From Alphaproteobacteria bacterium (GTDB taxonomy: Bacteria > Pseudomonadota > Alphaproteobacteria > Sphingomonadales > Sphingomonadaceae), in the NCBI GenBank assembly GCA_028293055.1, contig JAQGLD010000104.1, positions 1-11,201 of the forward strand: a DNA stretch of 11,201 nucleotides, read 5' to 3'. Every line of letters begins with the position of its first letter. The stretch's first letter is position 1. The position numbers and the translations under genes are program-made. The notes below the pieces were generated by a model. It searched no databases, was not told where the DNA came from, and saw only the letters and a list, made by a program, of their open reading frames with translations. Shown one piece after another: positions 2,869 to 9,883 of the stretch.

Positions 2869-3882
2869 ATGACCACCCTGCCCGAGACGATGATCGCGAT
2901 CGACCCCTCCGAAGCCGGTGGCCCCGAGGTGCTCCAGCCGGTCGAGCGGCCGGTACCGGCGCCCGCCGAAGGGGAGGTGCTCATTCGAGTCGCGGCGGCC
3001 GGGGTGAATCGCCCCGATGTCATGCAGCGGCGCGGGCTTTACCCGCCGCCGCCGGGGGCTCCTTCGATTCCCGGCCTCGAGGTCGCCGGGACGATCGTCG
3101 CCGTGGGCGATGGCGTCGACTCGGCAACGCTCGGCCGCGAGGTCTGCGCGCTGGTCGCGGGGGGCGGTTATGCCGAATATTGCGTGGCGACGGAATCGCT
3201 CTGCCTTCCGGTCCCGAACGCATTGTCGCTGAGCGAGGCGGCGGCGCTTCCGGAGACCTTCTTCACCGTCTGGACCAATCTGTTCGATCGCGGCGGCGCC
3301 CGGCGCGGCGCCCGAGTGCTCGTCCACGGCGGGACCAGCGGGATCGGCACCACCGCGATCCTGCTCGGCAGGGCCTTCGGGCTCGAGATCATCGTCACTG
3401 CCGGCTCGGCCGACAAATGCGCGCGAGCGATCGAGATCGGAGCGGCGCATGCGATCGACTATCGCGAGCAGGATTTTGTCGAGGAGGTGAAAAGAATCAC
3501 CGGAGGCCGCGGAGTCGATGTCGTGCTCGACATGGTCGGCGGCGACTATGTCCCGCGCAACATCGCCTCCCTGGCCGCGGACGGCAGGCATGTTTCGATC
3601 GCCGTCCAGCGCGGCGCCAAGGCCGAGATTTCGATCTGGGATGTCATGCGCAAGCGGCTGGTGCTGACCGGATCGACGCTGCGGCCGCAGCCGGTGGCGA
3701 TCAAGGCGCAGATCGCCGGTTCCCTGCGCCGCGAGGTCTGGCCGCACCTCGATGCGGGCGAAATCCGGCCGGTGATCCACGCCACCTTCCCGCTCGCGCA
3801 GGCGGCCGAAGCCCACGCCCTGATGGATTCGGGGGAGCATGTCGGGAAGATTGTCCTGGAGGTGAGGGAGGGGCGGGCATGA
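2869..3882 (+). CDS. NAD(P)H-quinone oxidoreductase (zinc-free MDR superfamily)
   Basis: The 337-residue cytosolic protein belongs to the QOR/PIG3 branch of the medium-chain dehydrogenase/reductases, which reduce quinones or other electrophilic carbonyls with NADPH. The GroES-like catalytic half carries GVNRPD (45-50) and YPPPPGAPSIPGLEVAG (58-74). The Rossmann half carries HGGTSGIGTTA (153-163) for nucleotide binding. The cysteine and histidine ligands of zinc-dependent alcohol dehydrogenases are absent. The ATG at 2869 gives the family N-terminus (MTTLPETMIAIDP). A second ATG at 2890 is possible but would trim the first strand. No strong Shine-Dalgarno is visible. It is divergent from DUF1192, a pairing I recall as recurrent in alphaproteobacteria. 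Downstream, a repeat-bounded GIY-YIG unit starts 19 nt after the stop. The true physiological substrate cannot be read from the sequence. Confidence 0.93.
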   Translation: MTTLPETMIAIDPSEAGGPEVLQPVERPVPAPAEGEVLIRVAAAGVNRPDVMQRRGLYPPPPGAPSIPGLEVAGTIVAVGDGVDSATLGREVCALVAGGGYAEYCVATESLCLPVPNALSLSEAAALPETFFTVWTNLFDRGGARRGARVLVHGGTSGIGTTAILLGRAFGLEIIVTAGSADKCARAIEIGAAHAIDYREQDFVEEVKRITGGRGVDVVLDMVGGDYVPRNIASLAADGRHVSIAVQRGAKAEISIWDVMRKRLVLTGSTLRPQPVAIKAQIAGSLRREVWPHLDAGEIRPVIHATFPLAQAAEAHALMDSGEHVGKIVLEVREGRA

Positions 3883-3901: not shown

Positions 3902-3935
3902 CGTCATTCCCGCGAAAGCGGGAATCCCGCTTCTT
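3902..3935 (+). repeat. Left inverted repeat of the GIY-YIG unit
   Basis: The core attcccgcgaaagcgggaat (3907-3926) is a perfect 8-bp stem closed by a GAAA tetraloop. It is preceded by cgtc and followed by a cccgcttctt tail. The whole 34 bp recurs inverted at 4235-4268. Confidence 0.9.
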
Positions 3936-3940
3936 TCTTA

Positions 3941-4231
3941 GTGGGAGGCTGGGTCTACATCATGGCTGACCGCTATCGCGGGACGATGTATACCGGTGTG
4001 ACCGCTGACATTGCTCGCCGAGCCTTTCAGCATAGCTCTGGAAGCGGATCGCGATTCGTCCGGAAATACGCACTCCTGCGGCTCGTTTATGCGGAGCCGT
4101 ACGAGCGGATCGACGAAGCGATTGCGCGCGAGAAAGCGATCAAGAAATGGCGGCGTCAGTGGAAGACCGAGCTGGTAGAAGCTGCCAATCCGAACTGGCT
4201 CGACTTGTTCGAGCATGTGATTGGCGTTTGA
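3941..4231 (+). CDS. GIY-YIG nuclease family protein (URI/YhbQ-like)
   Basis: The product is a 96-residue single-domain GIY-YIG protein, a fold that cuts DNA using one metal ion. The paired motifs are VYI (5-7) and YTG (17-19). They are followed by GVTADIARRAFQH (19-31) with the likely catalytic arginine at 26 or 27. EAIAREKAIKKW (59-70) supplies the metal-binding glutamate E64. An NPNW element (83-86) near the C-terminus is typical of small stand-alone members. Length is normal (about 85-100 residues) and the key residues are intact, so it looks functional. The GTG start is chosen because the next ATG (3962) would remove the VYI strand. No Shine-Dalgarno is present; the region upstream is the left inverted repeat. 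A/T-ending codons are commoner than in neighbours. DNA target and role are unknown. Repeat flanking suggests a nuclease that acts on, or moves with, its repeats. Confidence 0.9.
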   Translation: MGGWVYIMADRYRGTMYTGVTADIARRAFQHSSGSGSRFVRKYALLRLVYAEPYERIDEAIAREKAIKKWRRQWKTELVEAANPNWLDLFEHVIGV

Positions 4232-4234
4232 AAG

Positions 4235-4268
4235 AAGAAGCGGGATTCCCGCGTTCGCGGGAATGACG
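4235..4268 (-). repeat. Right inverted repeat of the GIY-YIG unit
   Basis: This is the inverted copy of 3902-3935 with one mismatch, in the hairpin loop (GAAA becomes GAAC on the complement). The core attcccgcgttcgcgggaat (4244-4263) forms a stem of 8-9 bp. The copy ends 8 nt before the ATG of the GST gene. Confidence 0.9.
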
Positions 4269-4276
4269 GAGTGGCC

Positions 4277-4894
4277 ATGCAAAATCTGATCCTTCACGAA
4301 TATTCGCCGTCCGGGAATTGCTACAAGATCCGGCTGACCGCAGCCTTCATTGGGCAGCCGATCGAGCGGCGCGAATATGACATCCTCAAGGGCGAGACGC
4401 GGACTCCCCAATTCCTCGCCGATGTGAATGCCAATGGGCGCATTCCCGTGCTCCAGATCGGCGATCGCTTCCTCCCCGAGAGCAACGCGGCCTGCTTCTA
4501 TCTCGCTGCGGGCACGCCGCTGGTGCCTGGGGAGAGGTTCGAACAGGCCGACATGCTGCGCTGGATGTTCTTCGAGCAATATAATCACGAGCCCAATATC
4601 GCCACCCTGCGATTCTGGCTCGCTTATGTCGGCGCGGACAATCTGAACGACGCGCAACGCGGACAGATCGAGGCCAAGAAGGCCGGCGGCGACGCGGCGC
4701 TCAAGCTGATGGACGAGCATCTGGCGGGCCGCGACTATCTGGTCGGCGGCCGACTCAGCCTCGCTGACATCGCGCTCTATGCCTACACCCATGTCGCCGA
4801 AGAGGGCGGCTTCGACCTGGCGCTATACCCAGGGGTTCAAGCCTGGCTGGCGCGGGTGGAGGCGCAGCCCGGCTATGTCGCGATGGCCGCCTGA
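4277..4894 (+). CDS. Glutathione S-transferase family protein
   Basis: This 205-residue cytosolic GST would conjugate or reduce substrates with glutathione. The thioredoxin-like N-domain opens with LILHEYSPSGNCYKIRL; the S-G-N-C stretch (12-15) is where the catalytic Ser or Cys lies in bacterial classes. It continues with the cis-proline segment RIPVL (55-59) and the glutathione-binding ES pair (68-69). The helical C-domain includes FEQYNHEPNIATLRFW (99-114) and the N-capping segment GRLSLADIALYAY (158-170). Length is typical. I start at the ATG (4277), with GGAG 5 nt upstream at 4268-4271; an in-frame GTG at 4271 overlaps that ribosome site and is less likely. The gene begins 8 nt after the right repeat of the GIY-YIG unit, so its ribosome site abuts or overlaps the repeat edge. 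Substrate unknown. Confidence 0.93.
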   Translation: MQNLILHEYSPSGNCYKIRLTAAFIGQPIERREYDILKGETRTPQFLADVNANGRIPVLQIGDRFLPESNAACFYLAAGTPLVPGERFEQADMLRWMFFEQYNHEPNIATLRFWLAYVGADNLNDAQRGQIEAKKAGGDAALKLMDEHLAGRDYLVGGRLSLADIALYAYTHVAEEGGFDLALYPGVQAWLARVEAQPGYVAMAA

Positions 4895-4903
4895 CTTGCC
4901 CGC

Positions 4904-4925
4904 CATCCCGGCGCAGGCCGGGATG
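4904..4925. repeat. REP-like hairpin after the GST gene
   Basis: A perfect 9-bp inverted repeat, catcccggc/gccgggatg with loop gcag, lies 9 nt after the GST stop codon and is followed by AC. It shares the YATYCCSG...CGGRATGAC pattern with the ends of the GIY-YIG unit. No T-tract follows on either side, so it is unlikely to be an intrinsic terminator. It could stabilise the GST mRNA 3' end. Confidence 0.7.
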
Positions 4926-4973
4926 ACTCGTGGGGCCAGATGCAAGAATCCCGTCGTGAGGCAACGACTCGCC

Positions 4974-9796: not shown

Positions 9797-9804
9797 CCCC
9801 GGTC

Positions 9805-9883
9805 GTCATTCCGGCGAAAGCCGAAATCTCCTCGGGCGGAGGCTGGCTTGTGGGCTGGTCGTTGCGGCAGTGGCCGGAATGAC
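9805..9883. repeat. Inverted REP-like pair between ispA and coaD
   Basis: gtcattccggc (9805-9815) recurs as a perfect 11-bp inverted copy at 9873-9883. The left copy continues as its own hairpin (cggcgaaagccg, with a GAAA loop like the GIY-YIG unit's left end). The right copy is more decayed. The pair spans 79 nt of the ispA-coaD gap and has no U-tract. Confidence 0.7.

Follow-up and report, generated by a model that had tools for sequence, protein, structure and literature searches.

A gene for a small GIY-YIG nuclease lies in a sphingomonad contig as the only gene between two head-to-head hairpins. The question raised by this locus is whether the nuclease and the hairpins together form a mobile element or became neighbors for another reason. 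A sequence-only reading of the same DNA had proposed that the nuclease recognizes or mobilizes its own hairpins, in a layout resembling that of REP-associated tyrosine transposases (RAYTs). The present study followed up this proposal in the window (the whole 11,201-nucleotide stretch of DNA that was analyzed) and in related genomes.

Structure of the unit

The unit is 367 bp long and ends 2 nt ahead of the GTG start of a glutathione S-transferase-like gene (Table 1). Its arms, each of 34 nt, are complementary at 33 of 34 positions (97%) and form the top-ranked inverted repeat of the window. The left arm stands 5 nt before the GTG at 3941 and the right arm 3 nt after the TGA at 4229-4231, exactly as the sequence-only reading had placed them. 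Its statement that each repeat is itself a hairpin was also correct: both arms form hairpins that have a stem of 8 bp and a loop of 4 nt, with CGTC on the outer side and CCCGCTTCTT on the inner side. One enzyme gene inside terminal inverted repeats is the layout of an insertion sequence (IS), and the unit has this layout.

Table 1. Coordinates of the unit, its parts, and its neighbors in the window
Feature	Position	Strand	Basis
Whole unit, REP - GIY-YIG nuclease gene - REP	3902..4268	+	Inverted-repeat arms; edges of copies elsewhere, within 1 nt
Left CGTC-tagged REP	3902..3935	+	Tag 3902-3905, stem 3906-3913/3918-3925, loop 3914-3917, tail 3926-3935
GIY-YIG nuclease gene, 96 aa, GTG start	3941..4231	+	ORF, Pfam, conservation, fold model
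Right CGTC-tagged REP, head-to-head with the left	4235..4268	-	Stem/loop 4245-4264, tag GACG 4265-4268
Zinc-type alcohol/quinone dehydrogenase gene (start approximate), left neighbor	2869..3882	+	Pfam; orthologues
Glutathione S-transferase-like gene, right neighbor	4271..4894	+	Pfam; orthologues

A loose REP pattern matched the window five times against 0.2 expected, and none of 200 shuffles reached five matches. A strict hairpin pattern matched 18 places in the window's genome, a fragmented sphingomonad assembly (82% complete, 644 contigs), and the reversed-pattern control matched none. Two other hairpins were noted in the window: a lone hairpin of another class (ATCCCGGCGCAGGCCGGGAT then GAC) at 4904-4927, directly after the glutathione S-transferase-like gene, and a decayed CGTC-type hairpin (CGTCATTCCGGCGAAAGCCGAAATC) between two genes at 9804-9828.

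Of four further nuclease matches in the window's genome, one is weak and another is truncated at the end of a contig. The other two (L002 and L003) lie in near-identical loci, the flanking hairpin of which is also of the CGTC type but differs from that of the unit. Their nucleases are sisters and their right flanks differ; they may represent two strains within one binned genome.

Affiliation of the hairpins with CGTC REPs

According to the available parts of the paper by Di Nocera and colleagues (PMC3733652), REPs comprise GTAG-tagged and CGTC-tagged superfamilies. The same parts state that GTAG REPs pair with RAYT transposases and that CGTC REPs, including dRS3 of Neisseria and RPE-6 of Rickettsia, were in 2013 apparently without a dedicated transposase (PMC3733652). 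CGTC palindromes are described there as occurring mostly in alphaproteobacteria, and in Neisseria and Rickettsia too. The tag on the window's REPs is CGTC and not the GTAG of RAYT-type REPs. Their arms fit the available description of CGTC-1 in the CGTC tag, the 8-bp stem starting with AT, and the 4-nt loop (PMC3733652); the tail reads CCC rather than the usual CCA, which is a majority feature in that description.

The association with this tag was also obtained when no tag was specified. For the nuclease gene and its relatives, the best perfect hairpin within 150 nt was taken on either side, and GTC preceded 161 and CGTC 145 of the 225 hairpins found. The next most common context was TGG (22), which the same repeat read from its tail end would give. 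When GTC was specified, inward hairpins were present on both sides of 120/204 nucleases and of 1/330 control ORFs. These ORFs were called with a simple script and came from twenty 20-kb stretches taken from related genomes.

Excinuclease ABC proteins are listed among REP-decorated genes in the accessible text of PMC3733652, and some records annotate relatives of the nuclease as 'excinuclease ABC subunit C'. The link between the nuclease and REPs may, therefore, have been seen earlier but misread.

Characteristics of the nuclease

The ORF matches the Pfam GIY-YIG family (PF01541) with an E value of 1e-12. Y6, Y17, R27, H31, and E64, which we take to be the catalytic columns, are all present, and each is conserved in 98-100% of 198 relatives, a set in which one gene was counted twice, in agreement with the earlier claim that the catalytic residues are intact. 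The 198 relatives have the signature KxWxRxWK and a C-terminal NPxWxDL with an invariant Asn. Fifteen lower-scoring relatives, to which we assign the label YhbQ-like, mostly lack the NPxWxDL tail and the tryptophans of KxWxRxWK; the first tryptophan is present in about a quarter of them.

The nearest solved structures by sequence are the UPF0213 proteins 1zg2 and 1ywl. A fold model of the nuclease (pLDDT 89.9) is also closest to UPF0213 1zg2 (E 3e-4), and Slx1 structures are weaker fold neighbors (E 0.09 and up). Slx1 cuts branched DNA, as stated in the available part of PMC6902002. Since a weak fold neighbor has this activity, it is plausible that the nuclease cuts a hairpin or a cruciform.

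Known transposase chemistry (DDE, HUH, tyrosine, or serine) was not found in the window's protein, in which Pfam detected GIY-YIG alone and NCBIfam nothing. Pfam also detected GIY-YIG alone in five relatives, an HUH/Y1 domain thus being absent from these as well as from the window's protein. Pfam detected no NUMOD or other DNA-binding domain in the 96 aa, and the gene is intergenic, outside any intron or intein. NCBIfam had no family for the window's protein, and two of three relatives matched far under the cut-off. PADLOC had no family for either of the two proteins tried.

Association of the nuclease with inverted repeats in other genomes

At a threshold of 1e-5, a nuclease match was found in 140/199 genomes of the window's family, with 0 to 14 matches per genome, and in 158/299 genomes across the phylum. 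Flanks were scored by aligning the 200 nt upstream of a gene locally with the reverse complement of its downstream 200 nt and taking the best score. Relatives of at least 50 bits reached a score of 16 or more in 99/123 cases and of 20 or more in 89/123, and the control ORFs did so in 4/330 and 0/330, respectively. These 123 relatives are mostly the best hits of each search together with hand-picked places, and not a random draw. In a scan of named genomes, limited to the best 80 of 108 loci, 63 of the 79 that were measured reached at least 16. Homologs are thus mostly flanked by inverted repeats, the outcome on which the sequence-only reading had staked its proposal. An earlier control with shifted windows (12/343 at score 16) was dropped in favor of the 330 ORFs because the shifted windows were mostly coding.

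These figures bear on two alternative explanations. Palindromes may lie beside a small ORF by chance or through an assembly artefact, the genome of the window being fragmented into 644 contigs. However, the layout recurs in complete named plasmids and in named genomes and is not produced by shuffles or control ORFs, and we attach a negligible probability to this explanation. The second is a role of the nuclease in the host, in which it would restrain REPs, trim them, or terminate its own transcription at them, the nearness of gene and REPs serving regulation. A terminator-like site in each arm fits this explanation, as does the location of REPs mainly downstream of coding regions reported in the available part of PMC3733652. 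Against it, the inverted-repeat score reached by 89 of the 123 nucleases is reached by none of the control ORFs, the number of nuclease matches per genome ranges from 0 to 14, and similar copies lie at different places, the sites not being conserved. We consider a host enzyme of this type highly improbable.

The pairing of the nuclease with matching hairpins is widespread in Pseudomonadota. Beyond alphaproteobacteria, inverted flanks were found in Dyella and in single MAG contigs of Calditrichota and Planctomycetota. The inverted-flank measure failed for further single MAG contigs, namely, Desulforapulum, one Anaerolineales contig, and one Planctomycetota contig. In a gonococcal record, a relative of the nuclease sits among dRS3-type repeats. 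Thirteen phage records match the nuclease, 11 of them over less than 80% of the query. In a Sinorhizobium meliloti record (L317), the end of a second nuclease copy was seen by eye just upstream of the nuclease (within the upstream 300 nt), and tandem units are, therefore, possible.

Inverted flanks were absent from 40 of the 202 relatives measured, which counts against a mobile element. A tagged hairpin lies within 400 nt of 29 of these 40, which gives little support because the same is true of 80/320 controls. One of the loci without inverted flanks (L314, one copy read) is listed on eight Rhizobium plasmids and has only a hairpin 183 nt downstream; its nuclease may belong to a settled, non-mobile branch.

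Among 17 genes below 50 bits, six reached a score of 16 and five reached 20. Two of the 17 (L078 and L136) belong to the main group but are broken; the remaining 15 are the YhbQ-like genes, four of which reached 16 and three 20. Three YhbQ-like nucleases (L153, L156, and L157) are flanked by inverted repeats of another kind, around CCTGAGCTTGTCGAAGG or CCTGAGGTGCC. Because these repeats differ, a second pairing of nuclease and repeat may exist among YhbQ-like proteins.

Relationship between hairpin class and nuclease lineage

The left and right hairpins of one gene had a median likeness of 94%, versus 58% for random pairs (n=120 doubly tagged genes). Hairpin similarity was correlated with protein similarity (Mantel r = 0.42; 999 permutations gave at most 0.12). 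When 12 hairpin classes were placed on a tree of 95 nucleases, 26 changes of class were enough, versus 62-75 in 200 shuffles; within the window's family alone (31 rows), the numbers were 13 versus at least 18. Some genomes contain nucleases that carry different hairpins. When each of these nucleases was compared with its nearest relative elsewhere, the hairpin of that relative was the more similar one in 12/12 comparisons (12-0), all from only two genomes.

Mobility of the unit

In three genomes (G507, G497, and G186) of the 26 sampled from the window's genus, copies elsewhere are similar to the window only between 3901/3902 and 4268/4269. The sequence-only reading had called for a search for empty sites, and these were found at three loci. 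Neither of the two outcomes named there as a refutation was, therefore, obtained, and its reading is supported.

At the window's own site, the dehydrogenase gene and the glutathione S-transferase-like gene were taken as the left and right sides. Both neighbors were present in 11 of 19 other loci fetched, and the nuclease was present in none of these 11. In L178, the two genes nearly touch and the nuclease is absent; in five of the 11 nuclease-free loci, the gap measures 556-699 nt and apparently contains another gene. A lone CGTC hairpin lies behind the dehydrogenase gene in L176, one of the window-site loci, and a lone nuclease-free CGTC hairpin lies just behind this gene in L161 and L177, the right neighbors of which differ. 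In G508, the unit itself lies behind the same dehydrogenase gene, and the transferase gene was not found alongside.

On Sphingobium plasmids, the unit is located between fnrL and a response-regulator gene in seven records, and the nuclease is absent from the fnrL site of five related plasmids (78-91% identical there). At two of these five nuclease-free sites, a single symmetric hairpin occupies the exact position, corresponding to the outer halves of both REPs. The nuclease and a hairpin cluster are present in three Shinella plasmids and absent from the other four read. In Sphingobium sp. TomTYG73 (L227), the plasmid nuclease gene is one base short relative to its sisters, and is frameshifted and unannotated.

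Nine similar copies lie at different places in G071, their similarity being limited to approximately 380-560 nt of loci of 3.2-4.9 kb. Two copies have a 47-nt deletion in common and two others a 137-nt deletion, both of which break the frame. Since the copies sharing a deletion lie at different places, these nuclease-broken copies most likely spread after breaking. In the G071 copies, the similarity also extends beyond the hairpins into sequence that is part of a second dispersed repeat, and the moving unit may, therefore, be larger in this genome. In G071 and G139 (L179, L201, L203, L184, and L198), some hairpins abut this second repeat of approximately 135 nt with GCGGAC/GTCCGC ends. Across 119 elements, target duplications were not in excess, and a pyrimidine directly preceded the left tag in 99 cases. 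Judged from these sequence comparisons, the unit is mobile.

Mobility may also arise in a different manner. A homing-type selfish nuclease gene may invade hairpins that are spread by something else, making the REPs its target and not its product. A resident REP would be cut and repair would copy the gene in, converting a hairpin or a pair into hairpin-gene-hairpin. This explanation is suggested by the symmetric hairpin at the exact place in two of the five nuclease-free Sphingobium sites, by the nuclease-free CGTC hairpins behind the dehydrogenase gene in L161, L176, and L177 of the window's genus, by the absence of target duplication, and by the fact that GIY-YIG domains belong to classic homing enzymes (available part of PMC1564403). 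Homing would account equally well for the lone hairpins behind the dehydrogenase gene, and our preference for an autonomous mobile element is slightly lowered because of them. However, a solo hairpin would also result from a deletion between REPs, no CGTC hairpin is visible at the other three Sphingobium sites or at 10 of the 11 window-type sites with both genes, and nuclease-broken copies spread with the same ends. REPs are also scarce in genomes without the nuclease, as described below. Homing is unlikely on these grounds, and we prefer a mobile element that carries its own enzyme because of the hairpin-less nuclease-free sites, the spreading of broken copies, and the small number of REPs where the nuclease is lacking.

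Short derivatives and REP numbers

Twenty regions of the genus were read. Two were nuclease units, and 12 of the other 18 contained head-to-head hairpin pairs, as judged by pattern, with a spacer of 34-121 nt. Most of these 12 pairs resemble the nuclease unit at their inner ends, which read CCCGCTT ... AAGCGGG or nearly so. Matches to the window's arms had served to select the regions, some of them for pairing, and the shared inner tail was thus partly selected as well; therefore, the pairs are known to exist, and their frequency is not given by this sample. Beside an intact unit in G507 (L338), a hairpin is followed by what was read by eye as the C-terminal part of another nuclease gene; tblastn did not report the nuclease remnant at this locus. 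The L338 remnant and the deletions in G071 suggest a series from an autonomous unit through a deleted unit to a REPIN-like pair.

REPs were counted with two strict patterns, the control counts of which were 0 in the rows shown. The median in the family was 14 in 126 genomes with a strong nuclease hit (best E value of 1e-15 or lower), versus 1 in the 73 others. No REP match was present in 9/126 genomes with such a hit and in 36/73 without it. REP number was correlated with the nuclease by a Spearman coefficient of 0.63, a statistic that ignores phylogeny. At least ten REPs were nevertheless counted in 10/73 genomes lacking a strong hit; five of these ten genomes have a weaker one.

These counts also bear on a further alternative, in which movement of the REPs depends on a different enzyme, for instance, a Y1 (RAYT/IS200-like) transposase, with the nuclease gene carried along between two REPs as a passenger. 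The window's genome has one Y1 (IS200-like) transposase ORF (G000:C136:376-699), broken nuclease copies spread as well, and REPs are somewhat more numerous in genomes with a Y1 ORF (median of 13.5 versus 5 without). However, a Y1 ORF was detected at 1e-5 in only 28/199 genomes. In the 171 genomes without it, the median number of REPs was still 12 with the nuclease (n=106) versus 0 without (n=65); in the 28 genomes with it, the corresponding medians were 25 and 2. Among nuclease-bearing genomes, the medians with and without a Y1 ORF were 25 versus 12. The nuclease, thus, makes a larger difference to REP number than the Y1 ORF. Furthermore, no CGTC or GTAG hairpin was present on the 1.5 kb around the Y1 ORF of the window's genome, and published work, according to the available part of PMC3733652, contains no tyrosine transposase flanked by CGTC repeats. 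We regard movement by a Y1 transposase as very unlikely.

Proposed mechanism

The unit is probably a minimal autonomous element of the CGTC REP superfamily, the hairpins being its ends and the GIY-YIG nuclease its sole gene, that moves itself and its short derivatives; this reading draws on the flanks, hairpin classes, copies, empty sites, and REP numbers compared above. We infer that the nuclease recognizes and cuts its own hairpin. It would recognize the hairpin of its own class, either as a single-strand hairpin or as a cruciform, and nick it at or near the CGTC tag. The freed or broken end would then allow the unit to be copied to, or joined at, another location, and host repair would complete the process. 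Short derivatives with the ends of the unit would be carried along in the same movement, and a deletion between the hairpins would reduce the unit to a single one.

We lean, with some reserve, towards a broader proposal: a stand-alone GIY-YIG nuclease of approximately 95 residues may be the sole enzyme of a widespread class of bacterial mobile elements that has no known transposase chemistry, and may be the missing dedicated enzyme of CGTC REPs, dRS3 included.

Comparison with known systems

The earlier comparison with RAYTs was partly upheld. The unit resembles the RAYT/TnpA-REP systems (REPINs, REPtrons) in its layout, with an enzyme gene flanked by hairpins linked to the enzyme, in the head-to-head hairpin pairs with the same inner ends in the genome, and in the association between enzyme lineage and hairpin class. 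The likeness did not extend to the enzyme fold, the tag, or self-copying: the RAYT enzyme is HUH/Y1 and its tag is GTAG, whereas the present unit has GIY-YIG and CGTC. RAYT genes do not copy themselves and have not been seen on plasmids, according to the available part of PMC8049555. In contrast, the present elements copy themselves (up to 14 nuclease matches per genome and nine units in G071) and occur on plasmids.

CGTC REPs, which include dRS3 and RPE-6, share with the unit the CGTC tag and, as described for CGTC-1, the 8-bp stem starting with AT, the 4-nt loop, and head-to-head pairing. They differ in that the published ones are without a dedicated transposase (available part of PMC3733652), whereas a dedicated nuclease is proposed here and the tail is CCC. 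GIY-YIG homing endonucleases of the I-TevI type have the same catalytic domain and a gene that is present or absent at orthologous sites; unlike them, the present nuclease has no extra DNA-binding domain by Pfam, is intergenic, and is flanked by its own inverted hairpins. UPF0213 and YhbQ-like proteins are single-domain GIY-YIG proteins and include the nearest structures by sequence and fold, but mostly lack the signature of the nuclease and have inverted flanks in 4/15 cases. Slx1 is a structure-selective endonuclease and a weaker fold neighbor (E 0.09 and up); however, it is a eukaryotic repair enzyme with a partner protein and is not mobile. Penelope-like elements are mobile elements with a GIY-YIG domain (available part of PMC1564403), but are large, contain a reverse transcriptase, and are eukaryotic. 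The unit differs from insertion sequences in having neither known transposase chemistry nor target site duplication (119 elements).

Among the matches listed in the open literature, preprints and most subscription journals being outside this search, we found none that links a GIY-YIG nuclease to REPs. A search for GIY-YIG together with REPIN, dRS3, or repetitive extragenic palindromes yielded no relevant open literature. As judged from sequence and from open literature with preprints outside, the REP-bounded GIY-YIG system appears to be a new category, RAYT-REPIN-like in its probable working and outside RAYT. We call it new because it departs from RAYTs in enzyme and tag, copies itself, occurs on plasmids, and is not linked to REPs in the literature found.

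The nuclease is bounded by CGTC REPs, follows their sequence, and predicts their abundance, which makes the question of how these REPs spread directly testable. If the proposed mechanism is true, it would add to the known ways in which DNA is moved, and the lifestyle in which a REP has its own enzyme would have arisen a second time, independently.
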